From positions 1 to 41,332 of the forward strand of contig JAFYSJ010000015.1 of NCBI GenBank assembly GCA_017559445.1: a stretch of 41,332 nt of DNA. Reading direction: 5' to 3'. The position numbers were made by a program, and so were the translations under genes. Positions within the stretch are counted from its first letter, which is position 1. Every line of letters starts with the position of its first letter. This document shows positions 9,724 through 26,905 of the stretch, in pieces. Origin of the DNA: Clostridia bacterium. Lineage in GTDB: Bacteria; Bacillota; Clostridia; RGIG7378. The notes below the pieces were generated by a model. The model was given only the letters and a program-made list of their open reading frames with translations. It had not been told where the DNA came from and did not search any database.

Positions 9724-10030
9724 GTTTGGTGTTTAGTGTTTGGTGATTAGTGTATGTTCATTACTTTGGAATGACCCAAAGTAATCAAAGGTCACCCGCT
9801 ACTTCCGAAGCGCGGGAGGCACGGTTTTATTTAGTGTTTAGTGACTAGTGTTTAGTGTATGTCACTATGTTCCAATGGTCGTTTCACTCACGCCTTAGCG
9901 CGGCTCACTAACGAGCTTTGCTCGTGGCCTACTAGCGCAGCGGTTCACTAGCACCAACGGTGCGACTACTAGCAAGCTCCGCTTGCGGTTCACTAGCCGA
10001 AGGCGGCTCACTAACGAGCTTGGTTCACTA
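9724..10030. repeat. Compound repeat A: heptamer tracts plus ACTAG-hairpin cassettes
   Basis: The region contains two tracts of a 7-base repeat (consensus GTTTAGT, variants GTTTGGT, GATTAGT, GACTAGT) at 9724-9754 and about 9830-9860. Between them is a hairpin ATTACTTTGG/CCAAAGTAAT (9760-9785) and a G+C-rich patch. After the conserved block GTATGTCACTATGTTCCA comes a chain of short hairpins, each headed by ACTAG or ACTAA: for example ACGAGC-ttt-GCTCGT, CACC-aac-GGTG, CAAGC-tcc-GCTTG and GCC-gaa-GGC. It fills the whole gap between the binding-protein gene and the permease gene. The same architecture recurs at 36951-37162. Confidence 0.8.
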
Positions 10031-11065
10031 ATCAAAAAAGAATCCTTCTTCAACTGCCTTAGTTGAGTTTGCGTTAATATCAATCAACTTATCAATAAAG
10101 TCTGTAAAATACTTGTGGTTATCCTTTACAGGAACAAATTTGATGTTACAGCCCTTAATTGAATCGGCGTTAAGAGTTCCAGCGTTAAGGCTAGGAGTCA
10201 TTCCTTCTGTCAAATTTGTCTCTATAGCATTAACCAAAGATGCAACATCTGCATTTGCAACATTATTTGCGTTATTTGTAATAACACTTGAAAGGTAATC
10301 TGCCAAATCAGGGTTGCTGGCCAAAAGGTCCGCCTTAACTACCAATACAGCCTGAGGATACATTCCCTCATCAGAATAAAGATCCTGCAAAGAACCTACC
10401 ATTGTAAATCCAGCCTTAGTAACCTTAGTTGTAGCAGCTGGTTCTGGTACGATATAGTAGTCGCATGTGCCTGCTGGTGTAACGTCTGTTGCATTAACAG
10501 CTACCAAGTTAACAGCATCTGTCATTACTGTGCTATCGTTTCCCATTACATTTACCTTAAGACCAAGCATCTTAAATACAATCTGTGTTGTAAGACCAGG
10601 AACATTAGCCAAGTTAACTACGCCAACAGTCTTTCCTACCAATTCAGATACATTATCCTTAGTAATCTGTACGCCGTTTTTGGTAATGATGTAGATATTG
10701 CCGTTTGTTACAGATCCAAGGAGCTTATACTTAGAACCATCGCCCAAAAGCTTAGCTGCTGCGTTAATTGGCATAATGCAAACATCTGCAGCAGGATTTT
10801 CGCCTGTTACATAAGTAGCAATTGTAGATGCGTCAACAACAGTCATATCAAGCTTATACTTGTCGCTTGCTGTTGGATTCATCATTTCTACAGCTAAACC
10901 GAGAGCTGGAGCGCCATCTGGCATATATACTTTAAGAGTTGTAGAAGTTGTGCCACCATTATTTGGTGTAGGTGTAGCACTGCTGTCAGTTGTAGAATCT
11001 CCTCCGCATGCTACCATTGAAATGCTAAGTGCGAGCACCAGCAATAAAGATAAAAACTTTTTCAT
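10028..11065 (-). CDS. ABC transporter substrate-binding lipoprotein (NMT1/SsuA-like)
   Basis: The start at 11065 (MKKFLSLLLV) follows AGAGGT; an in-frame ATG 36 bases upstream is less likely. The product of 345 residues has a lipoprotein signal peptide with lipobox SMVAC, a Ser/Thr/Pro linker (SSATPTPNNGG), then a type II periplasmic-binding fold. Relatives bind thiamine precursors, nitrate or sulfonates; residues do not settle which. It is first in the importer operon, upstream of permease and ATPase, but the compound repeat separates it from them. Its stop codon TAG (10028-10030) is the first unit of that repeat. A palindromic operator-like site lies in its promoter. Confidence 0.88.
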   Translation of the reverse strand: MKKFLSLLLVLALSISMVACGGDSTTDSSATPTPNNGGTTSTTLKVYMPDGAPALGLAVEMMNPTASDKYKLDMTVVDASTIATYVTGENPAADVCIMPINAAAKLLGDGSKYKLLGSVTNGNIYIITKNGVQITKDNVSELVGKTVGVVNLANVPGLTTQIVFKMLGLKVNVMGNDSTVMTDAVNLVAVNATDVTPAGTCDYYIVPEPAATTKVTKAGFTMVGSLQDLYSDEGMYPQAVLVVKADLLASNPDLADYLSSVITNNANNVANADVASLVNAIETNLTEGMTPSLNAGTLNADSIKGCNIKFVPVKDNHKYFTDFIDKLIDINANSTKAVEEGFFFD

Positions 11066-11142
11066 ATTAACCTCTTTCTGCCTCAGGCGTACCTTCGACA
11101 TTAAAATACTAATTAGAAAACATTATTGAATTTTCTGTAAGT

Positions 11143-11202: not shown

Positions 11203-11451
11203 CTACTGCTTAGAGAACAAAGTCTTAGCAGAAACACCTTGGAACATTCCAATTTTGCCAGTTAAACTATTAATTACTGTGGCAGGTGCATCGATTACTA
11301 CAGAAATTACATTAACGTTTTTCTCATGGTATGGAATACCCATTCTGCCAACGATATACTCTCCTGCTTGGCTTAAGAGCTCGTTTACCTGGCTAGAAGC
11401 AGTTCTCTCATACACGAATATAGAAATTATTGCAATTCTTGTTTCTTCCAT
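11203..11451 (-). CDS. TM1266-family iron-only hydrogenase system regulator
   Basis: The 82-residue protein matches the small ferredoxin-like-fold family named after Thermotoga TM1266: an N-terminal MEETRIAIISIFV strand, a helix, the RMGIPY stretch, then VNVISVVIDAPATVINSLTGKIG. Such proteins are found beside [FeFe]-hydrogenase genes and are proposed regulators, possibly binding a ligand as NikR/ACT-like domains do; the mechanism is not established. It follows hydA in the same direction. Its ribosome binding site GGAGGG lies in the 3' arm of a hairpin at 11457-11486, so expression may be conditional. Confidence 0.88.
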   Translation of the reverse strand: MEETRIAIISIFVYERTASSQVNELLSQAGEYIVGRMGIPYHEKNVNVISVVIDAPATVINSLTGKIGMFQGVSAKTLFSKQ

Positions 11452-11456
11452 ACAAA

Positions 11457-11486
11457 AATCCCTCCGTCTAAATAGGCGAAGGGATT
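11457..11486 (-). promoter_or_regulatory. Hairpin holding the ribosome binding site of the TM1266-type gene
   Basis: On the minus strand AATCCCTTCG pairs with CGGAGGGATT (10 base pairs including one T-G wobble, loop of 10). The 3' arm contains the GGAGG ribosome site of the next gene, and TTTTTG follows at once, so the same structure also looks like an intrinsic terminator after hydA. Confidence 0.65.
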
Positions 11487-11559
11487 ACAAATCAAATTAG
11501 TATAAATTGTATTCCCTTCACCGTTAGAACTTATCTTTACGATTTAGGTAAATAGATTA

Positions 11560-13281
11560 TTAGTTGAACTTATTTCTTGCAGTATAGTGAGTATGGAGAA
11601 TCTCATGAGCCTTGTGGCTGTTGGGTTCACCAAAGAACTCCTTATAAAGCATATCTACAACTGGAGACTTGTGAGACTGTCTAAGTGGCAATGACTCGTC
11701 ATATTTGTAGAGAGCATTTGCTCTAACTGCACGAACATCAATGGAGTTACGTACTTCGTCTGCAACGTGAGGCTGACCACCACCGTTAATACATCCGCCT
11801 GGACAAGCCATAACCTCAACGAATGTGTAAGACTTTTCGCCAGACTTAATCAACTCCATAACCTTACGTGCGTTACCAAGACCGCTAGCAACAGCAACAG
11901 AAACAGTTACGCCACCAACTGTGTACTCAGCTTCCTTAACGCCCTCTGTACCACGAACTTCGCTAAATACCAAGGGTTCGCCTTCGCCACCAAGCTTAAC
12001 AGCTGCAGTTCTAAGAGCTGCCTCCATAACACCACCTGTTGCACCAAAGATAGCACCAGCACCTGTAGCAATCTCAAATGGATTGTCGTACTCGCCGTCA
12101 GGAATGTTATTGAAATCAATACCAGCCTCAGAAATCATCTTAGCAAGCTCTCTTGTTGTCAAAGCAACATCTGTATCCTTGTTCATCTCAGGACGCTCAA
12201 CCTCGTACTTCTTAGCTGTACATGGAATAACAGATACAACAAACAAGTCGTCAGGATTGATATTGTTCTGATCACAGTAATATGTCTTAAGGATGGAACC
12301 GAACATCTGCTGTGGAGACTTACATGTAGAAAGGTTGTTAAGGTACTCAGGGTAGTTGTGCTCAAGGAACTTGATCCAACCTGGACAGCAGGATGTAAAC
12401 ATAGGAATTGTTCCACCTGTTGTTACTCGAGTAAGCAACTCTGTAGCCTCTTCGAGAATTGTAAGGTCAGCAGTTACGTCCATGTTAAAGCACTGTACGT
12501 TGGAACCGAGAGCCTTAATTGCTGTAACCATCTTACCCTCAACGTTTGTACCAACTGGGTTGCCAAAGGACTCGCCAAGCTGTACACGAACAGAAGGAGC
12601 TGTGTAGAATACAACCTTCTTGTCTGGATCGGAAATAGCGTCCCAAACCTTCTCTACGTCGCTCTTTTCAGAAAGAGCACCTACTGGACATGCTACAATA
12701 CACTGACCACAGTTTACGCAGTTTGTCTCACCCAATCCGATATCAAAAGGACTGCCAATATGCTTAGCAAAACCTCTGCGGATAGGTCCGATAGCACCAA
12801 CTGTCTGCAAATCACATGCTGCTACACAACGTGTGCAGTTAATACACTTAGAATTATCTCTAACGATAGATACAGAGGACAAATCCTTTGCAGGGAACTC
12901 TTCAGGAGAACCGAATCTATCTTCGTCACAATTATACTCAAGAGCAAGTCTCTGAAGTTCGCAGTTTGTGCTACGAGGACAGGACAAACACTTCTTGTTA
13001 TGTGTGGAGAGGATCAACTCCAAAGTTGTCTTACGAGACTTACGTACCTTGGGAGTATTTGTCTGAACCTCCATGCCCTCGCTAACTGGATATACACAAG
13101 CGGCTACCAAGCCACGAGCGCCAGTTGCCTCAACGAGACACATACGGCAAGAACCACACTTCTGAACATCCTTAAGGAAGCAGAGAGTTGGGATTTTAAC
13201 ATTAGCAACCTTAGCTGCATCAAGGATTGTAGAGCCTTCCGGTACGGAAACGGCAATACCATTTATCTTTAAATTAACCAT
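11560..13281 (-). CDS. hydA: [FeFe]-hydrogenase catalytic subunit, NAD-linked (HydA type)
   Basis: The start at 13281 follows GGAGG by eight bases; an ATG 15 bases upstream overlaps the end of nuoF. The 573 residues carry, in order, a plant-type [2Fe-2S] domain (CGSCRMC, about 42-48), a His-Cys [4Fe-4S] motif (HNKKCLSCPRSTNC, about 94-107), two ferredoxin motifs (CINCTRCVAAC and CVNCGQCIVAC), and the H-cluster motifs TSCCPGW (296-302), VIPCTAKKYE (from about 352) and EVMACPGGCINGGGQP (489-504). It makes or consumes H2 in the cytoplasm with NuoE and NuoF. The usual MPC of the second H-cluster motif reads IPC. Maturation genes hydE, hydF and hydG are not in the window. Confidence 0.96.
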   Translation of the reverse strand: MVNLKINGIAVSVPEGSTILDAAKVANVKIPTLCFLKDVQKCGSCRMCLVEATGARGLVAACVYPVSEGMEVQTNTPKVRKSRKTTLELILSTHNKKCLSCPRSTNCELQRLALEYNCDEDRFGSPEEFPAKDLSSVSIVRDNSKCINCTRCVAACDLQTVGAIGPIRRGFAKHIGSPFDIGLGETNCVNCGQCIVACPVGALSEKSDVEKVWDAISDPDKKVVFYTAPSVRVQLGESFGNPVGTNVEGKMVTAIKALGSNVQCFNMDVTADLTILEEATELLTRVTTGGTIPMFTSCCPGWIKFLEHNYPEYLNNLSTCKSPQQMFGSILKTYYCDQNNINPDDLFVVSVIPCTAKKYEVERPEMNKDTDVALTTRELAKMISEAGIDFNNIPDGEYDNPFEIATGAGAIFGATGGVMEAALRTAAVKLGGEGEPLVFSEVRGTEGVKEAEYTVGGVTVSVAVASGLGNARKVMELIKSGEKSYTFVEVMACPGGCINGGGQPHVADEVRNSIDVRAVRANALYKYDESLPLRQSHKSPVVDMLYKEFFGEPNSHKAHEILHTHYTARNKFN

Positions 13282-13295
13282 TTTCTCTACCTCCA

Positions 13296-15188
13296 TTACT
13301 TCTTAACAATAGCGCCAAACTTACACTTAGCAATACATGCACCGCACTTAATACACTTAGCTGTATCGATTACGTGAGGCTGCTTAACTGTACCACTAAT
13401 AGCACCAACAGGGCACTGACGTGCACAGAGAGTACATCCCTTACACTTATCCTCTTCGATATGGAAGTTAAGCAAGGACTTACATACACCTGCAGGACAA
13501 GACTTATCATAAATGTGAGCCTTGTACTCGTTCATATAATGCTGCATTGTGGAGAGAATTGGGTTAGGAGCTGTCTGACCAAGAGCACAAAGTGAAGATG
13601 TTCTCATATGGTTAGCAATGTCAGAAATCTTCTCAAGATCCTCTGGCTCACCGTTACCCTTAGTAATCTTCTCAAGGATATCAAGAAGTCTGCGAGTACC
13701 AATTCTGCAAGGAGTACACTTACCGCAGGACTCATCTGCTGTGAACTCAAGGTAGAACTTAGCGATATCTACCATACATGTATCTTCGTCAAGAACGATA
13801 AGACCACCAGAACCCATCATGGAGCCAATAGCTGCCAAGTTATCGAAGTCCATCTGAACATCGCCCTGGTCTGCAGGGATACATCCACCAGAAGGACCAC
13901 CTGTCTGAGCTGCCTTAAACTTCTTGCCATTGGGGATACCGCCACCAATCTCGAATACAATCTCGTTAAGAGTTGTACCCATAGGAACTTCAACAAGGCC
14001 TACGTTGTTAATCTTACCACCAAGTGCGAATACCTTAGTACCAGAGGACTTCTCTGTACCAATGGACTTAAACCACTCAGCACCATTCATAATAATTGGG
14101 TTAATGTTAGCCCATGTCTCAACGTTGTTAAGAATTGTAGGCTTACCAAAGAGACCCTTAACTGCTGGGAACGGAGGTCTAGGTCTTGGCTCTCCTCTAT
14201 GACCTTCGATAGAAGTCATAAGAGCTGTCTCCTCACCACATACGAATGCGCCAGCACCAAGTCTAAGCTCAAGCTCGAAGTCGAATCCAGAACCCAAAAT
14301 ATTCTTACCAATAAGGCCTGCTTCTCTAGCTGCTGCCAAAGCAATGTTAAGTCTGTTAACAGCGATTGGATACTCAGCTCTTACGTAAATGTAACCCTGG
14401 TGTGCGCCAATTGCGTAACCAGCAATAGTCATAGCCTCAATAACACAGTGTGGGTCACCTTCCAAAACGGATCTATCCATGAATGCACCTGGGTCACCTT
14501 CGTCAGCGTTACAGCAAACATACTTAACGTCGCTTACAGAAGCCTTAGCAAATGCCCACTTACGTCCTGTTGGGAATCCAGCACCGCCTCTACCTCTAAG
14601 ACCAGAAGCAAGAAGTTCATTAATAACATCATCTGGTGTCATGGAAGACAATACCTTAGCCAAAGCCTGGTAGTCTCCAGCACCAATAGCCTCATCCAAG
14701 CTCTCAGCTGCGATAACACCACAGTTACGAAGAGCAATACGAAGCTGCTTCTTATAGAAAGGAGTCTCAGCAAAAGGAATGATAGAACCATCCTCGTGAA
14801 TTGTACCCTCGTACAAATACTCCTTAACGATATCGCCACCTGGAACAAGGTGCTTCTCAACTACTTCCTTAGCGTGCTCAGGAGTAATCTGTGCATAGAA
14901 TGCACCCTCTGGATAAACGATCATGATTGGACCCAAAGCGCAAAGACCGAAACAACCTGTCTTTACGATAAGTACGTCGTCAATGTTATTCTCTACAAAG
15001 GACTTCTCCAACTGCTCAATAACCTTAAGGGAGCTGGAAGATGTACAACCTGTACCGCCACAAACAAGAACCTGCTTACGGTAACCTGTGTTAGCAGCAA
15101 GCTTCTCGCCCTCTTCCTTAATAACTCTACGAACCTTAACGAGATCCTCAAATTGTGCCTTCTTGGCATTTAATTCTTGAATTGTCAT
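13296..15188 (-). CDS. NADH-binding flavoprotein subunit of the hydrogenase (NuoF/HydB type)
   Basis: The 630 residues comprise an N-terminal thioredoxin-like [2Fe-2S] domain (CGGTGCTSSSS and KTGCFGLCALGP), the NuoF core that binds FMN and NADH (GLRGRGGAGFPTGRKW, ADEGDPGAFMDRS, GAGAFVCGEETAL), the [4Fe-4S] motif ESCGKCTPCRIGT with a distal Cys in SLCALG, and a C-terminal pair of ferredoxin motifs (CKGCTLCARQCP, CIKCGACIAKCK). This is the HydB layout of soluble trimeric, often electron-bifurcating, hydrogenases. The ribosome site AAGGAGGT precedes the ATG, and nuoE ends 14 bases upstream. Bifurcation itself is inferred. Confidence 0.95.
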   Translation of the reverse strand: MTIQELNAKKAQFEDLVKVRRVIKEEGEKLAANTGYRKQVLVCGGTGCTSSSSLKVIEQLEKSFVENNIDDVLIVKTGCFGLCALGPIMIVYPEGAFYAQITPEHAKEVVEKHLVPGGDIVKEYLYEGTIHEDGSIIPFAETPFYKKQLRIALRNCGVIAAESLDEAIGAGDYQALAKVLSSMTPDDVINELLASGLRGRGGAGFPTGRKWAFAKASVSDVKYVCCNADEGDPGAFMDRSVLEGDPHCVIEAMTIAGYAIGAHQGYIYVRAEYPIAVNRLNIALAAAREAGLIGKNILGSGFDFELELRLGAGAFVCGEETALMTSIEGHRGEPRPRPPFPAVKGLFGKPTILNNVETWANINPIIMNGAEWFKSIGTEKSSGTKVFALGGKINNVGLVEVPMGTTLNEIVFEIGGGIPNGKKFKAAQTGGPSGGCIPADQGDVQMDFDNLAAIGSMMGSGGLIVLDEDTCMVDIAKFYLEFTADESCGKCTPCRIGTRRLLDILEKITKGNGEPEDLEKISDIANHMRTSSLCALGQTAPNPILSTMQHYMNEYKAHIYDKSCPAGVCKSLLNFHIEEDKCKGCTLCARQCPVGAISGTVKQPHVIDTAKCIKCGACIAKCKFGAIVKK

Positions 15189-15202
15189 ATGTAGGGACCT
15201 CC

Positions 15203-15688
15203 TTAATCCATGTAATGAGACAACATGTCGTCAACCATATCTGGTGTCAACTTGCCGTATACATCTTCGTCAATAACAACAACTGGTGCGAGACCGCAAG
15301 CACCTACACAACGGCATGTGTCGATAGAAAAATTACCATCTGGTGTAATGCCGCCAGCAGAAATGCCAAGTCTCTTCTCAAGCTCTGCCAAAATCTTGTC
15401 AGAACCCTTAACGTAACATGCTGTACCGAGACAAACGCTAATCTTGTGCTTGCCCTTAGGTGACAGTGTAAACTGTGAATAGAATGTGGCTACGCCATAA
15501 ACCTCGGCCAATGTAACGCCAAGTCCGCCAGCAACCATCTGCTGAACTTCAATTGGCAAGTAACCGTAAATTCTCTGTGCCTCCTGCAAAACTGGCATCA
15601 AACAACCAGGCTCGTTCTTCTCTTTTTCAATAAAAGCCTTAAGTTCCAGTTCCTGCTCAGGGGTTCCCTTAAAAGGTATCTGTGTCAT
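15203..15688 (-). CDS. [2Fe-2S] subunit of the hydrogenase (NuoE/HydC type)
   Basis: The 161-residue protein is a thioredoxin-like ferredoxin of the NuoE family. An N-terminal helical part is followed by the four cluster ligands in CLGTACYVKG and CRCVGACGLAPV. It passes electrons between the NADH site of the NuoF-like subunit and the hydrogenase clusters. It is the first gene of the operon nuoE-nuoF-hydA; the ATG follows GGGAGG and a strong promoter lies at 15740-15768. Confidence 0.95.
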   Translation of the reverse strand: MTQIPFKGTPEQELELKAFIEKEKNEPGCLMPVLQEAQRIYGYLPIEVQQMVAGGLGVTLAEVYGVATFYSQFTLSPKGKHKISVCLGTACYVKGSDKILAELEKRLGISAGGITPDGNFSIDTCRCVGACGLAPVVVIDEDVYGKLTPDMVDDMLSHYMD

Positions 15689-15906: not shown

Positions 15907-18900
15907 TTAAACCTTTGCAACTGTGATCTTGCAATCCTTGCCATTAAGATCAGCTGTTTCACCATCGTTATCTTCTCTTACGAAGTTAACACAAAGTGTC
16001 TCGGAGCAAATGTACTCCTTGTGACCTGCCAATGCTGTAGCCAGCTCGTCGTCACAGCTGTACTTAATCTGGATGTTATCCATCATGTCAAGGTCAAGAG
16101 TCTTACGCATCTGCTGTACCTTGGAGATGAACTCTCTAGCATAACCTTCGCTAATAAGTGCATCGTCAAGGTGTGTATCGAGGATAACAAACAAGTTACC
16201 ATCAACCATAACGTTGTAACCTTCCTTAGCAGAAATACGGATGTCTGTATTCTCTGCCTTTGCGAAGTAAGGTGTACCTGCAATATCAAGCTCGATGGTC
16301 TGACCAGCCTCGATTGCCATTGCAGCCTCTGCTGCATCAAGCTTACCAAGTGCCGCTGCAAAGAGCTTAATGTTGCTACCAAGCTCAGGACCTGCAACCT
16401 TAAAGTTAGGCTTGATCATAAAGTTCATGTACTCGCCAAGCTTATCTGCGTATACGAGAGACTTAACGTTAAGTTCCTCGCGAACTGTTGCTTCCAAATC
16501 ACCAAGCAAATCACGATGCTTGCTTGCGATGTAGATATTGTAAAGTGGCTGACGAACCTTAATCTTAGCAGACTCTCTAGCAGAACGGCCAAGAGAAACA
16601 AGGTTACGTGCCAAATCCATTCTAGCTTCAAGTGTCTCATCTACATATGCAGTGTTGCATACTGGGAACTGAGCCAAATGAACGGATGTGTCATGACCAA
16701 GAGCTCTGTACATCTCCTCAGAGATATATGGAGCAAAAGGAGCCATAATCTTAGCCAAATCACCGAGAATCTCGTATGTTGTAGCATATACAGACTGCTT
16801 ATCAAGATCCATCTCGGAAGACCAGAATCTACGACGAGATCTTCTGATATACCAGTTAGAAAGGTCCTCAGCAACGAAGTTCTGAATAGCTCTTACGGAC
16901 TTCATGTGATCGTACTGCTCCATGTAGCCTGTAACCTCTGCTGCCAAGCTGTTAAATCTAGATACAATCCAACGATCAAGCATTGGTCTATCCTTGTACT
17001 CAATGTGGAACTCAGAAGGATCTACATTGTCTACACCAGCATAAAGTGTGAAGAAGTTGAAGCAATTCTTAAGTGTCAAGAAGCACTTAGACACAACTTC
17101 CTTAAGACCATCCTCATCAAATCTTGTTGGTGTCCAAGCTGGAGATACAGAAAGAATGTACCATCTAACTGCGTCTGCACCATACTTATCAAACATCTCG
17201 AATGGATCTACGGAGTTACCCTTGGACTTGTGCATCTTGTGTCCATGCTTATCCAACATAAGGTCGTTAACAAGAACTCTCTTGTAAGGAGATTTACCTG
17301 TAATGAATGTGGAAATATTAAGCAAAGAGTTGAACCAACCACGAGTCTGGTCGATACCCTCGCAGATAAAGTCTGCAGGGAACTTTTCCTCAAAGAACTT
17401 CTCCTTGTTCTCGAAGGGGTAGTGCCACTGTGCGAAGGGCATTGCGCCACTATCGAACCAGCAGTCACATACATCAGGAACTCTGCTCATTGTCTTGCCA
17501 CAGTGAGGACACTTAATATGAACATTATCTACATAAGGTCTGTGAAGCTCGATTGTCTCATCGATATCCTCAATAGCCTTCTCTACCAACTCTGCTCTAG
17601 AGCCAATGCTCTCAAGGTGACCGCACTCACATCTCCAGATGTTAAGAGGTGTACCCCAATATCTAGAACGAGAAAGTGCCCAGTCTACGCTGTTCTCAAG
17701 CCAGTTACCAAAGCGCTTCTCACCAACAAATGGTGGATACCACTCAACTGTGTTGTTGTTAGCAACAAGCTGATCTCTCATAGCTGTTGTCTTAATGTAC
17801 CAGCTAGGCTTTGCATAATAAAGAAGTGGTGTACCACATCTCCAGCAGTGAGGATAGTTATGAACCATCTTCTCCTTGCGGAAAAGCTTACCATTCTCAT
17901 AGAGCCAAGTAATAATATCTGGATCTGCCTCCATAACATTCATACCAACCCAAGGTGTTTCAACATACTGACCCTTGTCGTTAACAGGCTGTACAACAGG
18001 CAAGTCATATCTAAGACCTGTATTGTAGTCGTCTGCACCGAATGCTGGAGCTGTGTGAACGATACCTGTACCATCGTCAGTTGTAACATAGTCTGCACAT
18101 GTAACAAAGAAAGCCTTCTTGTTAGGCTGGCAGAATGGCATGAGCTGCTCATACTCCCAGTACTCCATGTCCTTACCTGTCATTTCAGCAAGAACCTCAT
18201 AATCCTCGCTCTGGAGAACCTTAGGTGCCAACTGTTTCTGTACATAGTAAACAGTATCCTTGAACTTAATCTTAACATACTGCTCGTTGGGGTTAACGGT
18301 AAGAGCTACGTTGGAAGCAAGTGTCCAAGGTGTAGTTGTCCATACCAAGAAATATGCATCCTCGTCAGCCTTCTTGAATTTAACGTATACAGTATTAACT
18401 GTGATCTCCTTATAACCCTGAGCAACCTCGTGGGAAGCAAGACCTGTACCGCAACGTGTGCAGTAAGGCAAAATCTTGTGTCCATCGTAAATAAGTCCTG
18501 CATCAAAGAAAGACTTAAGAATCCACCACTCTGTCTCAATATAGTTGTTATCAAGAGTGATATATGGGTTGTCCATATCGATAGCGTATGCCATGCGCTC
18601 TGTCATGTTGCGCCACATACCCTCGTATGTAAATACGGACTCACGGCACTTCTTGTTAAATGCCTCAATACCGTACTGCTCAATCTCAGTCTTGTCATTA
18701 AGACCAAGCTGCTTCTCTACTTCGATCTCAACAGGCAATCCGTGTGTATCCCAGCCAGCCTTACGCTTAACTTGATAACCCTGCATTGTCTTGTAACGGC
18801 ATACAGAGTCCTTGAGAGTTCTAGCAATAACGTGGTGAATACCAGGTCTACCATTAGCTGTTGGTGGACCCTCGTAGAAAATGAATGGCTTAGCACCCTC

Positions 18901-19002
18901 TCTCTCGCTGGTAAACTTGTCAAATAATTGTTCCTGATTCCACAGGTCTCTGATGGCCTGCTCATTATCCTTAACAGGCTTTGTTGACAAAGATTTAATC
19001 AT
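15907..19002 (-). CDS. ileS: Isoleucyl-tRNA synthetase, type-2-like
   Basis: The 1031-residue enzyme charges tRNA-Ile. The class I HIGH motif is GIHH (54-57) after PPTANGRP, and the KMSKS motif reads KMHKS (589-593) before KGNSVDP. The editing domain shows TTTPWTLASN (222-231) and GTGIVHTAPAFGADD. Zinc-like pairs CECGH and CPHCG lie near 457-502. The length and these variants point to the IleRS2 (eukaryote-like) form, which is often less sensitive to mupirocin, although that cannot be read directly. The start follows AGGGGAT. The leader is too short for a T-box, unlike many Firmicutes ileS genes. Confidence 0.96.
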   Translation of the reverse strand: MIKSLSTKPVKDNEQAIRDLWNQEQLFDKFTSEREGAKPFIFYEGPPTANGRPGIHHVIARTLKDSVCRYKTMQGYQVKRKAGWDTHGLPVEIEVEKQLGLNDKTEIEQYGIEAFNKKCRESVFTYEGMWRNMTERMAYAIDMDNPYITLDNNYIETEWWILKSFFDAGLIYDGHKILPYCTRCGTGLASHEVAQGYKEITVNTVYVKFKKADEDAYFLVWTTTPWTLASNVALTVNPNEQYVKIKFKDTVYYVQKQLAPKVLQSEDYEVLAEMTGKDMEYWEYEQLMPFCQPNKKAFFVTCADYVTTDDGTGIVHTAPAFGADDYNTGLRYDLPVVQPVNDKGQYVETPWVGMNVMEADPDIITWLYENGKLFRKEKMVHNYPHCWRCGTPLLYYAKPSWYIKTTAMRDQLVANNNTVEWYPPFVGEKRFGNWLENSVDWALSRSRYWGTPLNIWRCECGHLESIGSRAELVEKAIEDIDETIELHRPYVDNVHIKCPHCGKTMSRVPDVCDCWFDSGAMPFAQWHYPFENKEKFFEEKFPADFICEGIDQTRGWFNSLLNISTFITGKSPYKRVLVNDLMLDKHGHKMHKSKGNSVDPFEMFDKYGADAVRWYILSVSPAWTPTRFDEDGLKEVVSKCFLTLKNCFNFFTLYAGVDNVDPSEFHIEYKDRPMLDRWIVSRFNSLAAEVTGYMEQYDHMKSVRAIQNFVAEDLSNWYIRRSRRRFWSSEMDLDKQSVYATTYEILGDLAKIMAPFAPYISEEMYRALGHDTSVHLAQFPVCNTAYVDETLEARMDLARNLVSLGRSARESAKIKVRQPLYNIYIASKHRDLLGDLEATVREELNVKSLVYADKLGEYMNFMIKPNFKVAGPELGSNIKLFAAALGKLDAAEAAMAIEAGQTIELDIAGTPYFAKAENTDIRISAKEGYNVMVDGNLFVILDTHLDDALISEGYAREFISKVQQMRKTLDLDMMDNIQIKYSCDDELATALAGHKEYICSETLCVNFVREDNDGETADLNGKDCKITVAKV

Positions 19003-19058: not shown

Positions 19059-19086
19059 ATTATATCAAATGGTAATATAATTTCAA
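19059..19086 (-). promoter_or_regulatory. Promoter of ileS
   Basis: On the minus strand -35 TTGAAA (19081-19086) and -10 TATAAT (19059-19064) are 16 bases apart. The -35 overlaps the last codons of the upstream helicase-like gene. Confidence 0.75.
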
Positions 19087-22000
19087 CGCTTAATAAGTCC
19101 AGAGAGCAATCTCATCTCTCTATCTCCCCATGTGCTGGATGAAGTTCTAATGGCTAAAATGTTATCTCTGTTGAGAACATCGTTAAGCATAATGCACTGT
19201 TCTCTAAGAGATGACTTAACAGCTTCTGGTCCGTCAGAAATAATTGCCGCCAAAGGTCTCATTACTGTAATGTCATCAGACATAACAAAGAGCATAATTG
19301 GAGAATCTGGATCACATGGCTTAACCGGTCTAAGACCCATATTTTCAACTACGTCAGAAACATACTCTCTAAATGGATCAGCATTTCTGTCATCAGATGT
19401 AAGCTCTGCTCCAGGTCTTGTATTGAGGAAATATGGTCTCAATGTTCTGGTGTAGCAATGCTTTGCCATCAAGATGCCCATGAGAGAATCAATAGGTGCA
19501 TCGTAAACAGATCCGTTACATCCCATAGTAACTAACTGCTTAGATCTCAAAAGAGCTCCAAGACAAGAATATGGGCTAATGTTATGGCCATCTGGAATCA
19601 TTACACAGTCAAATGCATTACCAGACTTGTGTGGAACATTAACCATTGCATATGTGGGAGCAACAAATACTGGAATACATGTTCTAATAACTCTGCCAAA
19701 CTTGTCCAACATATTATCATCGTACTGAGCAAGCTCCTCAGGATTCTGGCACAAATCATGGAAAGCCATGTACTGCTTAAGGAACTCGCTATTACGTACT
19801 GCAAGCTTAATCTTTTCGACGTAAGACAAGATTGTCTTATCAAGGTTAAGTGCTGGAACAGACTTTTCGGAAGATGCGTAAGCTGTTGCTCTCCTGATAA
19901 TCTCCTTAGAGTTAATACCAATAAACTCTGGAACCTCATTAACTCTGTAATCTCTAATCTTGCGATAATAATTAACGAGGAAGGACTCACAAAGTGTATT
20001 TTCAATCTTAGACCACTTGGCAGTAACCTGAGTTACGCCAGAAAGTCCTGCTTCATCAAGTGACTTAACAATGCGATTATACTCAGCAATCTCACCAAGT
20101 TTATCAATGCCGTCTTTCCAGACATTAATCTGCTGCAAAATGTTAGCAAATCTAAAACTCAAAAAGATGTCATAACCAACAAGCTGAACAGTATCCAAGA
20201 ACTCCTTAAGTCCTGTGCGGAACTCGTCTGCTGCCTTGTCATAATCAATAAGGTGCAATGACATGGCTCCTGTGTCGTAATCAGCAATTCGCATTTCTGC
20301 AACATACTGGTTATCTGCAAAATCAGAAAGGCTAAATGCTGTATACCAGTCAGCGAAGTTAAGAACTCGATTAATGTCCTCCTTAACTCCTCTAAACTCT
20401 CCCTTAATTACCTTACGAAGCAAGTCCATACCATAATCAAAAGACTGACGAATAGTCTCAAGGCGAATGCACTTGTCGATCATATTAATCTTGTCAGCAG
20501 TCTTAAGTTTCTTCCAGTTCTTGGAGAAATAATCTCCCATCTGCTTCTTACCGTTGCGCTGATCCTTATCAAAGAGCTTAAGACCATTATTTTCTGCCAA
20601 AATATCCTTCCAGAGAGTCATATCATTAATTGTATATGTCTCATCTGGAGTCTCAATAAAGTCAGCAAGTTGCTGCTTAATGGAATCATACTCCTGCTGC
20701 AAAGCAAGTGCTGCCTTAGCCTCTTCTGTAACAAGAGATGGCTGCTGCCATGCATCAGAAATAAGATTAATGAAAGAACAATCAGGTCTGCTGGCCAAAT
20801 ATCTAACTGGCTCAGACAAGTTTTTAACTTTCTTCATGTCAATAGGAGCTGGAAGTTGTGAAACCTGAGCAAGCATGTTACCCTTATCTCTAACAACCTC
20901 AACATCCTTAGCAAGTTTATCAAGCATTTCTTTAAGGTTATCTGTTGTTTCTTTAGAAATAGATGTAACCTTACTGCCCCAGAATGGATTAGTTCTAGCA
21001 AGACCAACTGTTTCAATGTGATTTTCAAGAGCTCTTACCTTCTCAAGTTTACCTGCGAGTTCCTTAGGAGACCATTTTTCAGGATTTGCAATATTAATCT
21101 CAGGAATATTCTCCTTACGGCTGGCAAATCTCTGCTCCAAAACGAGAATACATCCATTAACACCATAAAGTGTCATGCCTGTGTTGCCAATCTTGCCAGA
21201 AACATAGGAGTAGAAATTAGAAACATCGCTACGAACTCTGTCGATTGTTCTATAAGCCTCAGCGATCTTAGGAGCAGAAAGTCTAGTGGACTCCCTGTTG
21301 AAGAAATCGATGGAACGAAGGTATGCATTAACGATGCGCTCATTATCCAGCTTAACATCACCTGTAAGTCTGATATACAAATCACCAAGACCAACATTAT
21401 CCAAGGACTGACATACAGAGTCAAGAATCTTGTTATCTCTAGATGTAATAAGTAAACGCTTATCATTACCAATAGCATTGGACGCAAAGTTAACAACGTT
21501 CTCAAGTGGAGTTCTGTCGTCTGTAGCATCGAGCAAAATGCAGTTATGCTTATTAATGTCCGCAAGAGCCATCAACTTGCTCATATCACTGTTGTACATA
21601 TAGTAAAGAGAATCTGGAGCTGTAATCTTGTCCATATCCTCATTGTTATCTACATTTCTAATTGGGAACTGATCCTTGTTGAAAATGCAATCCATGTTTG
21701 CAAAACCTGGCATTACAGAAATCTTATCGTTAAATGCAACAGATGCAAATTCCATCTCCTCGGATCTATCAGCCAATATCAAGTTGATCTCCCATGCATC
21801 GTAAGTAAGACCTGTGTCAGAGCAAAGCTTGTACAAATCAGGATCTACAGATGCAATGGCATTACGAGGCTCAGATTTAGGATCAAAGTTAGCATAAATG
21901 TCAGCCTCGTTTGATTCCTTATACTTCTCCTGAAGTCCTCTATTAGCAGATAATCCCTTAGCAGCCGCTGTCAGGTCCAATTTCTTGTCACCAACAACGT

Positions 22001-22304
22001 AATTAAGCTGAATTGTAAAGATTGGATGTGTAACGTTATTGCCCTCTGCATCTACTGAAAACAAAGAACCAATACCAAAGAACAATCTGATATTATTGTT
22101 ATTAGAAATAATATCTAAGTTATTAATAAAAGACTCGTCAATCTCTGTAAGTGGAATAGAAATAGTACGTCCACCATTAAAAAACTTACGATCAACGTGC
22201 TTAAGATAAGAAGAGTCAATTTTATATATTGAATTATTGCCTGGGCAATAAAGAGAACCTGTGGTGTTATAATTAAAAAATCCGGAAAGATTGAATCCTG
22301 ACAT
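19083..22304 (-). CDS. Degenerate SF1 helicase-like protein (DUF4011/AAA_11-related) lacking ATPase motifs
   Basis: The 1073-residue protein follows the order of large DUF4011-type SF1 helicases. The N-terminal part has IRLFFGIGSLFS...HPIFTIQLNYV (about 72-103), like the family's ALGFLEW...PLLLVPVEL block. The P-loop region follows (SKLMALADINKHNCILLDATDD, then NVVNFASNAIGNDKRLLITS at about 269-288), then VGLGDLYIRL. A long helical insert comes next. The C-terminal part has FDCVMIPDGHN (898-908) and KQLVTMGCNGS (922-932). The canonical residues GPPGTGKS, DEAS and GDPKQ are all replaced, so ATP hydrolysis is unlikely. The frame is intact and codon use matches the neighbours, so it looks selected rather than decayed. 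The start follows GAGGTGA. Family placement is by pattern, not by search. Confidence 0.65.
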   Translation of the reverse strand: MSGFNLSGFFNYNTTGSLYCPGNNSIYKIDSSYLKHVDRKFFNGGRTISIPLTEIDESFINNLDIISNNNNIRLFFGIGSLFSVDAEGNNVTHPIFTIQLNYVVGDKKLDLTAAAKGLSANRGLQEKYKESNEADIYANFDPKSEPRNAIASVDPDLYKLCSDTGLTYDAWEINLILADRSEEMEFASVAFNDKISVMPGFANMDCIFNKDQFPIRNVDNNEDMDKITAPDSLYYMYNSDMSKLMALADINKHNCILLDATDDRTPLENVVNFASNAIGNDKRLLITSRDNKILDSVCQSLDNVGLGDLYIRLTGDVKLDNERIVNAYLRSIDFFNRESTRLSAPKIAEAYRTIDRVRSDVSNFYSYVSGKIGNTGMTLYGVNGCILVLEQRFASRKENIPEINIANPEKWSPKELAGKLEKVRALENHIETVGLARTNPFWGSKVTSISKETTDNLKEMLDKLAKDVEVVRDKGNMLAQVSQLPAPIDMKKVKNLSEPVRYLASRPDCSFINLISDAWQQPSLVTEEAKAALALQQEYDSIKQQLADFIETPDETYTINDMTLWKDILAENNGLKLFDKDQRNGKKQMGDYFSKNWKKLKTADKINMIDKCIRLETIRQSFDYGMDLLRKVIKGEFRGVKEDINRVLNFADWYTAFSLSDFADNQYVAEMRIADYDTGAMSLHLIDYDKAADEFRTGLKEFLDTVQLVGYDIFLSFRFANILQQINVWKDGIDKLGEIAEYNRIVKSLDEAGLSGVTQVTAKWSKIENTLCESFLVNYYRKIRDYRVNEVPEFIGINSKEIIRRATAYASSEKSVPALNLDKTILSYVEKIKLAVRNSEFLKQYMAFHDLCQNPEELAQYDDNMLDKFGRVIRTCIPVFVAPTYAMVNVPHKSGNAFDCVMIPDGHNISPYSCLGALLRSKQLVTMGCNGSVYDAPIDSLMGILMAKHCYTRTLRPYFLNTRPGAELTSDDRNADPFREYVSDVVENMGLRPVKPCDPDSPIMLFVMSDDITVMRPLAAIISDGPEAVKSSLREQCIMLNDVLNRDNILAIRTSSSTWGDREMRLLSGLIKR

Positions 22305-22348
22305 ATTCTCACCTCAAAACTTTTTTATTGAAAATATTATAATATGTA

Positions 22349-22377
22349 TTGACCTAATATTCAACGGGTGCTATAAT
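22349..22377 (+). promoter_or_regulatory. Promoter of tRNA-Leu
   Basis: -35 TTGACC (22349-22354) and -10 TATAAT (22372-22377) are 17 bases apart, and the tRNA begins 11 bases after the -10. Confidence 0.85.
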
Positions 22378-25184: not shown

Positions 25185-26186
25185 TTACTTAGCAAGAGCC
25201 TGGCTAACTGCAACTGCAACGTTAACTGTGCAACCTACCATTGGGTTGTTACCCATACCAAGGAAGCCCATCATCTCTACGTGAGCAGGAACAGAGGAAG
25301 AACCTGCGAACTGAGCGTCGCTGTGCATTCTACCCATTGTATCTGTCATACCGTAGGAAGCAGGACCTGCTGCCATGTTGTCTGGGTGAAGTGTTCTACC
25401 TGTACCACCACCGGAAGCAACGGAGAAGTACTTCTTACCCTTCTCTACGCACTCCTTCTTGTAAGTACCTGCAACTGGGTGCTGGAATCTTGTTGGGTTA
25501 GTGGAGTTACCTGTGATGGATGCATCAACACCCTCGTGCCACATGATAGCTACGCCCTCACGTACATCGTCTGCACCGAAGCAACGAACGTTTGCTCTCT
25601 CACCGTTGGAGTAAGGAATCTCCTTAACAACCTTGAGCTCACCTGTGTAGTAATCGAACTGAGTCTGAACGTATGTGAAACCGTTGATTCTGGAGATGAT
25701 CTGAGCAGCATCCTTACCAAGACCGTTAAGGATAACTCTAAGAGGAACCTGACGAACCTTGTTAGCGGACTTAGCAATACCGATAGCACCCTCAGCAGCT
25801 GCGAAGGACTCGTGACCTGCCAAGAAAGCGAAGCATGTTGTCTCCTCACGAAGCAACATAGCTGCCAAATTACCATGACCAATACCAACGTTACGGTCAT
25901 CAGCTACGGAACCAGGAATACAGAATGCCTGCAAACCCTCACCAATAGCCTCAGCTGCCTCTGCAGCAGACTTAACATTTCTCTTAAGTGCAATAGCTGC
26001 ACCTACAACGTATGCCCAGCAAGCGTTCTCGAAACAGATAGGCTGAATATCCTTAGTCATCTGATAAGGATCAAGACCATACTGCTCGCAAATGCTCTTT
26101 GCTTCCTCAATGGAGCTAATGCCATTCTGTGCAAGGCAAGCGTTAATTTGATTAATTCTTCTCTCGTAATTTTCAAACAATGCCAT
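25185..26186 (-). CDS. GGGtGRT protein
   Basis: The 333-residue protein carries the motif SVASGGGTGRTLHPD (about 255-269), which gives the family its name, and highly conserved blocks such as GSVADDRNVGIGHGNLAAMLLREET and AGPASYGMTDTMGRMHSDAQ. The family is found in anaerobic Clostridia next to a NifU-like scaffold gene, as here. Its biochemical role is not known. Codon use suggests strong expression. It starts 11 bases after the NifU-like gene (AAGGTGA site) and shares that gene's promoter. Confidence 0.92.
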   Translation of the reverse strand: MALFENYERRINQINACLAQNGISSIEEAKSICEQYGLDPYQMTKDIQPICFENACWAYVVGAAIALKRNVKSAAEAAEAIGEGLQAFCIPGSVADDRNVGIGHGNLAAMLLREETTCFAFLAGHESFAAAEGAIGIAKSANKVRQVPLRVILNGLGKDAAQIISRINGFTYVQTQFDYYTGELKVVKEIPYSNGERANVRCFGADDVREGVAIMWHEGVDASITGNSTNPTRFQHPVAGTYKKECVEKGKKYFSVASGGGTGRTLHPDNMAAGPASYGMTDTMGRMHSDAQFAGSSSVPAHVEMMGFLGMGNNPMVGCTVNVAVAVSQALAK

Positions 26187-26197
26187 ATTATGTCACC

Positions 26198-26905
26198 TTA
26201 TTCCTTTCTGGGGTCGATGTACTTAGCAGCATCCTTGAAACGACCGTAGCTGCTTGTAGCTGCCTTAAGAGCCTCATTAGCGTCTACGCCCTTCTTGATT
26301 GCATCCATCATCTTACCGAAGCTTACGAACTCGTAACCGATAACAAGATCGTCCTCATCAAGAGCCATTCTTGTAACATAACCTTCTGTCATCTCAAGGT
26401 ATCTTGTACCCTTAGCGCGTGTACCGTACATTGTACCAATCTGGCTGCGAAGACCCTTACCAAGGTCCTCCAAACCTGCGCCTACATTAAGTCCACCCTC
26501 GGAGAATGCGGACTGAGAACGTCCGTAAACGATCTGAAGGAAGAGCTCTCTCATAGCTGTGTTAATAGCATCACAAACAAGGTCTGTGTTGAGAGCCTCA
26601 AGCAATGTCTTGCCAGGGAGAATCTCAGATGCCATAGCAGCAGAGTGTGTCATACCGGAACATCCAAGAGTCTCAACAAGTGCCTCCTCGATGATACCAT
26701 TCTTAACGTTAAGTGTAAGCTTACATGCTCCCTGCTGAGGTGCGCACCAGCCTACTCCGTGTGTGAAACCAGAAACATCAGGGATGTTCATTACCTTGGT
26801 CCACTCACCCTCCTGTGGAATTGGTGCAGGACCGTGATATGCGCCCTTACCAACAACACACATATTTTCAACTTCGTGGGTATAAGCTATTGTACCTTTA
26901 GCCAT
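26198..26905 (-). CDS. NifU-like iron-sulfur cluster scaffold-type protein
   Basis: The 235-residue protein contains a NifU/IscU-like core: ETLGCSGMTHSAAMASEILPGKTLLEAL (from about 78) resembles the GCxxxxxSASxxxEMxxGKTLxEAL stretch of scaffolds. Two further Cys are present (GWCAPQQGAC, about 53-60). Dedicated scaffolds assemble Fe-S clusters; this longer variant always seems to travel with GGGtGRT and may serve it alone. It is the first gene of that two-gene operon, behind a strong promoter. The ribosome site AAAGGAG lies slightly far from the ATG. Confidence 0.85.
   Translation of the reverse strand: MAKGTIAYTHEVENMCVVGKGAYHGPAPIPQEGEWTKVMNIPDVSGFTHGVGWCAPQQGACKLTLNVKNGIIEEALVETLGCSGMTHSAAMASEILPGKTLLEALNTDLVCDAINTAMRELFLQIVYGRSQSAFSEGGLNVGAGLEDLGKGLRSQIGTMYGTRAKGTRYLEMTEGYVTRMALDEDDLVIGYEFVSFGKMMDAIKKGVDANEALKAATSSYGRFKDAAKYIDPRKE

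Follow-up and report, generated by a model that had tools for sequence, protein, structure and literature searches.

Few pseudohelicases have, to our knowledge, been documented. Deinococcus radiodurans PriA, a bacterial helicase descendant with degenerate Walker A and B motifs that is retained by its clade, has lost its ATPase, keeps DNA binding, and contacts DnaB (PMC4504706). The inactivated SF1 helicase domains of AddB and RecC, an SF1 fold without helicase motifs, read Chi (PMC4824097), and Utp25 is an essential dead helicase retained as a structural component (PMC9539457). The protein described here, a pseudo-helicase with a degenerate nuclease, differs from each of them. PriA comes from another helicase family and keeps its DNA-binding and DnaB role, whereas our protein is also without one RecA domain and carries a dead nuclease; RecC and AddB keep the overall SF1 topology and act inside RecBCD and AddAB, whereas ours has RecA1 only and belongs to another family; Utp25 is eukaryotic, of the DEAD-box family, and serves in ribosome assembly. 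RecC also has an inactive nuclease-like domain. The closest intact proteins are the PDC-S37/ProA-like helicase–nucleases, and our literature search returned almost nothing on DUF4011 and nothing under the name PDC-S37. They share with our protein the order of a DUF4011-like N terminus, RecA1 with a long helical insertion, and an MTES_1575-type nuclease, and can be aligned with it nearly end to end. They measure about 1550-2050 aa, whereas the pseudo-helicase has 1073, with motifs I, II, and III replaced, RecA2 (AAA_12) and the DUF3320 tail absent, and the nuclease residues lost.

The window, by which we mean the whole 41,332-nucleotide stretch analyzed, encodes this protein on the minus strand at 19083-22304 (all coordinates within the gene below refer to that strand). 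As the preliminary description stated, the frame is intact. It opens with ATG, runs for 1073 codons uninterrupted by any stop, and ends in a stop codon at 19083-19085. A promoter-like TTGAAT-17-TATAAT (22364-22336) and a ribosome site, GAGGTGAG (22315-22308), precede it on the same strand (22308-22364), and a similar sequence precedes the orthologue. The sole orthologue found lies in the same gene order on contig JAFVXO010000113.1 of Clostridia bacterium RGIG5486, a sheep-colon MAG from the same taxonomic order (locus L012 of genome G001), and is 73% identical over the full length. Scanning the GTDB species genomes and IMG/VR with a two-sequence alignment returned the sheep-colon MAG alone and nothing viral, and searches of the class and the phylum yielded distant relatives only, with no further degenerate member of the same architecture. 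The comparisons below thus involve two orthologues in total, both from draft assemblies.

Profile searches identified the family. The PADLOC PDC-S37 profile matches residues 218-928 (E 2.4e-53), and the NCBIfam anti-phage ProA profile matches residues 221-928 (E 5.9e-36), at 123 bits against a curated cut-off of 1500. The Hhe profile, also of DUF4011 anti-phage type, gives a weaker match (E 1.6e-9) in the first helicase half; the pseudo-helicase shows the same losses against Hhe and is much shorter than that profile of 1797 positions. A Pfam scan of the protein found no match at E up to 5 and no AAA_12, and phmmer against the PDB returned just chance-level matches to staphylococcal nuclease. 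The DUF4011/AAA_11-type likeness put forward earlier is therefore carried by the PDC-S37 and ProA profiles, which place the similarity to helicases far above chance and establish, at the level of sequence, descent from a DUF4011-type helicase–nuclease.

The intact relatives used here come from three kinds of source: other Clostridia; plasmids of Rhizobium, Indioceanicola, and Hymenobacter; and viral contigs. Four of them carry the Pfam domains DUF4011, AAA_11, AAA_12, MTES_1575 nuclease, and DUF3320. A tblastn search of plasmids gave distant matches, two of them annotated as DUF4011 or DUF3320 proteins, and the corresponding search of phages with the pseudo-helicase gave no match. Our family model was matched in 84 of 391 Clostridia genomes, a count that includes related UPF1-like helicases. 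The retrieved family members that cover the motifs keep GPPGTGK[ST], DEAS, and GDxxQ, and those relatives with a P-loop are proteins of different, complete architecture. Among the loci inspected, apparent motif absences beyond the window protein and its orthologue were truncated loci or more distant helicases. Distant DUF4011-like or UPF1-like members, some in partial loci, were also noted (L059 of genome G469, and L082). In a tree, the window protein and its orthologue sit on a very long branch of 2.2 substitutions per site, so that we do not trust their exact placement.

A multiple alignment of the pseudo-helicase with five intact relatives is colinear. The N-terminal region (residues 1-229; 21618-22304) is a shortened, diverged counterpart of the DUF4011 region, where model confidence is low; its RLFFGIGSLF...THPIFTIQLNY...GLQEKYK stands in register with LFLALGML...APLILVPVNL...SLESKLK of the relatives, and the Pfam DUF4011 model does not match it. 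The first half of RecA1 follows (residues 230-316; 21357-21617), supported by the alignment, the model, and VIA-align matches to the RecA1 of IGHMBP2, Dna2, and UPF1, with a strand at 256-259, the P-loop position, a helix at 266-279, and a strand at 284-288. RecA1 is then interrupted by a long insertion of about 560 residues (residues 317-876; 19677-21356), roughly half of the protein, which is predicted to be helical, with large parts at pLDDT 80-90. Its second half, placed by the same three lines of evidence, occupies residues 877-935 (19500-19676).

All three ATPase motifs of RecA1 are replaced, as the preliminary description had proposed, and the strings it quoted lie in register with the motifs of the relatives. 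LDATDDRTPL (residues 258-267; 21504-21533) takes the place of Walker A, where the alignment pairs DATDDRTPLEN with GPPGTGKSQTI and the orthologue reads LLDATDDRAPYENV. Walker B is replaced by IPDGHN (residues 903-908; 19581-19598), PDGHN aligning with DEASQ, and motif III, GDxxQ in the relatives, is GCNGS (residues 928-932; 19509-19523); both assignments draw on the alignment and the orthologue. The segment FDCVMIPDGHNISPYSCLGALLRSKQLVTMG was located at residues 898-928. The flanking blocks VGLGD, FDxV, and GAL.R.KQ.V..G are retained. The three ATPase motifs and the nuclease residues are lost in the orthologue too, so the motif loss extends to both known members.

Beyond motif III, only a stub of RecA2 remains (residues 936-970; 19395-19499). 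There, DSLMGILMAKHCYTRTLRPYFLNTRPG stands in register with ESILKLFLAQNAPERTLRWHYRSRHES, RTLRPYFLNTR replacing the RTLRWHYRSRH of the relatives, and after about 30 residues some 200 residues are missing before the nuclease region begins. In a 1560-aa relative (L017), AAA_12 covers residues 1010-1206, and its counterpart is absent from the pseudo-helicase. The full-length structural model has modest confidence (pLDDT 60, pTM 0.40); it is better at residues 270-490 and 680-890 and poor over the first 250 residues and at the C terminus. Foldseek returned no match at E <0.001 for either the full-length or the C-terminal model. Realignment with VIA-align gave IGHMBP2 at Z 13.6 (188 residues, 4.5 A), Dna2 at 12.9, and UPF1 at 12.4. 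These matches span model residues from about 229 to 949 and, within the targets, cover only the first RecA domain, given the domain borders that we take for these chains. Since RecA1 alone is matched and the match ends where RecA2 would begin, the model, together with the alignment and the Pfam domains of the relative, indicates one RecA fold with the second absent. Of the two RecA folds expected from the preliminary description, one is thus present and the other deleted; that account had recognized the ATPase motif losses and overlooked both this deletion and the degenerate nuclease at the C terminus.

Three tests support reading the C-terminal region (residues 971-1073; 19086-19394) as an MTES_1575-type nuclease that has degenerated and lost its D…ExD residues. 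In a genome-wide search, Pfam MTES_1575 (PF18741) matches the orthologue at positions 4-94 of 96 (E 0.006), with the window's own copy failing to reach E 1. An hhalign comparison of the C terminus with intact nuclease domains gave P 5.6e-5 over 103 columns. The fold list of the C-terminal model, itself weak (pLDDT 62), is headed in VIA-align by Hjc (Z 7.2) and VRR_NUC (6.9), with TnsA at 5.2; a modeled Z of about 7 would by itself be insufficient for a nuclease assignment. It is the Pfam match in the orthologue, the profile comparison, and the PD-(D/E)XK-type fold matches together that argue for a nuclease origin. The IDLAI...GIECDG of the relatives has become PIMLFV...AIISDG, with the catalytic D and E replaced. 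PIMLFV (residues 1002-1007; 19284-19301) lies at the lost Asp site, where the register is uncertain by a few residues, and AIISDG (residues 1020-1025; 19230-19247) aligns with GIECDG, turning the E-x-D pair into I-x-D.

Having lost the P-loop, Walker B, motif III, RecA2, and the nuclease residues, the protein should be unable to work as a motor or a nuclease. Judged from these replacements, it is almost certainly a dead enzyme for which helicase and nuclease activities of this type are not possible, and ATP hydrolysis, unwinding, and cleavage would all be absent. What it does instead is less firmly indicated. On balance, we lean toward a domesticated pseudoenzyme that arose from the PDC-S37/ProA-like DUF4011 group and now acts as an ATP-independent scaffold; a helicase–nuclease ancestor would have given rise to a non-catalytic protein in which a protein or nucleic-acid partner would dock on the RecA1 fold and the helical insertion, and what is left of the active sites, frozen in sequence, may serve as structural or contact surfaces. 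The existence of just two orthologues from draft assemblies and the modest confidence of the full-length model count against this combined reading. The scaffold role taken separately is a plausible proposal that we hold with some reserve; the housekeeping neighborhood offers no functional clue to it, and any partner or ligand is putative.

The strongest competitor is a DNA- or RNA-binding regulator that, in the manner of Deinococcus PriA or RecC/AddB, attaches to a nucleic-acid structure and either brings in or holds back an active enzyme located elsewhere in the cell. D. radiodurans PriA and the inactivated SF1 domains of AddB and RecC provide precedents, and RecA1 is retained. However, the protein has lost RecA2, which supplies half of the tracking site. 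This loss disfavors classical strand tracking; the usual single-strand tracking cleft would be impossible, which weakens a nucleic-acid role, and of the putative roles suggested in the preliminary description (scaffold, sensor, or nucleic-acid clamp), a clamp working in the ordinary helicase manner becomes improbable. The protein is also acidic (pI 5.2), although the intact relatives are acidic too. AddA and AddB were both found in the genome, separate from the pseudo-helicase, which is therefore no substitute for AddB, and we rejected that candidate role. In neither genome did we find an intact family member, an AAA_12 helicase above the cut-off, or another MTES_1575 nuclease, which speaks against its being the dead partner of a living paralogue. 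We consider a regulator of this kind rather unlikely.

A second alternative is that the protein still acts against phages although it no longer catalyzes anything, for instance by binding a phage product as a sensor or decoy and passing a signal to another system. Its basis is that the nearest profiles are ProA, named anti-phage by NCBI, and a PADLOC defense candidate. The setting of the gene points elsewhere. Synteny with the orthologous locus extends over MFS, tRNA-Leu, the pseudo-helicase, ileS, nuoE, nuoF, and hydrogenase genes; the recognizable neighbors are housekeeping genes, among which we recognized no defense gene or defense island. Retention at the same site in both species is unlike mobile defense genes, and orthologues were not found in phages or viral contigs. 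Taken together, these observations make a surviving anti-phage role improbable.

The same locus bears on the adjacent ileS (15907-19002), beside which the preliminary description knew of no protein of this kind. A promoter-like TTGAAA-16-TATAAT for ileS (19059-19086, minus strand) overlaps the stop codon of the pseudo-helicase gene, and a similar sequence occurs in the orthologous locus, which suggests that ileS has its own promoter. Because of this conserved site, there is no evident functional link between the two genes, and we do not favor a tie between them. No T-box or other RNA element was found upstream at Rfam gathering scores. Each genome has a single isoleucyl-tRNA synthetase gene above the cut-off. 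The MupA/MupB mupirocin-resistance models score the window ileS slightly higher than the general ileS model does, though far below their own cut-offs; it is probably a type-2 isoleucyl-tRNA synthetase. In the sheep-colon locus, an ABC transporter (membrane and ATPase parts, 599 aa; L012:11761-13560) lies between ileS and nuoE and is absent from the matching gap in the window. Elsewhere in the window are a gene cluster for an NADH-dependent [FeFe]-hydrogenase that includes a TM1266-like regulator (11203-15688); a 357-aa open reading frame by the hydrogenase genes (10028-11101) that has no Pfam match and a weak match to an NCBIfam lipo-invert domain; and a GGGtGRT protein (PF14057) beside a NifU-like protein (25185-26905). 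Where compared, nuoE, nuoF, and hydrogenase share 87-92% identity with their sheep-colon counterparts.

Conservation between the two species bears on a third alternative, a novel activity (enzymatic or ligand-binding) gained where the old active-site surfaces of the RecA1-like fold and the C-terminal domain were rebuilt. The replaced motifs are non-random: DATDDR, PDGH, PIMLFV, and AIISDG are identical in both species despite saturated synonymous sites. The Walker A block (residues 256-277) is 82% identical, the helical insertion (residues 346-870) 76%, and the best conserved stretch, residues 871-970 around dead motifs II and III, 81%. Against such an activity, the motif III remnant itself varies (GCNGS/GCNSS; block identity 0.44), and no known catalytic motif was recognized with Pfam, PADLOC, or NCBIfam profiles. 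We give a new activity as little weight as a retained anti-phage role.

The gene is under purifying selection in the two species. Window gene and orthologue differ with a saturated pS of 0.79 against a pN of 0.18, and by codon position (first, second, third) the differences amount to 0.23, 0.14, and 0.56. Since synonymous sites are saturated while the nonsynonymous difference is 0.18, the gene is not a pseudogene. A decaying gene or assembly artifact left open by chance, to which the loss of all catalytic parts and one domain and the draft state of both sources might point, is very improbable given a frame of about 1073 codons intact with the same architecture in two independent assemblies and changes concentrated at third positions. 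The earlier preference for a conserved pseudo-helicase over a pseudogene has thus held up, on the helicase profiles, an orthologue with the same losses, and saturated synonymous sites at 73% identity.

We return to the domesticated, non-catalytic scaffold as our preferred reading. We know of no other selected protein that unites an inactive helicase and an inactive nuclease with the deletion of a RecA domain. If the reading is correct, the protein would illustrate clearly how a defense-type enzyme can be domesticated into non-catalytic service. The comparison of the two species defines a set of frozen residues in the pseudo-helicase. More speculatively, an antiviral-type helicase–nuclease may have become a vertically inherited, non-catalytic housekeeping protein, which would make it the first of a pseudoenzyme class whose function is structural or regulatory, possibly with a new activity on the rebuilt surface.
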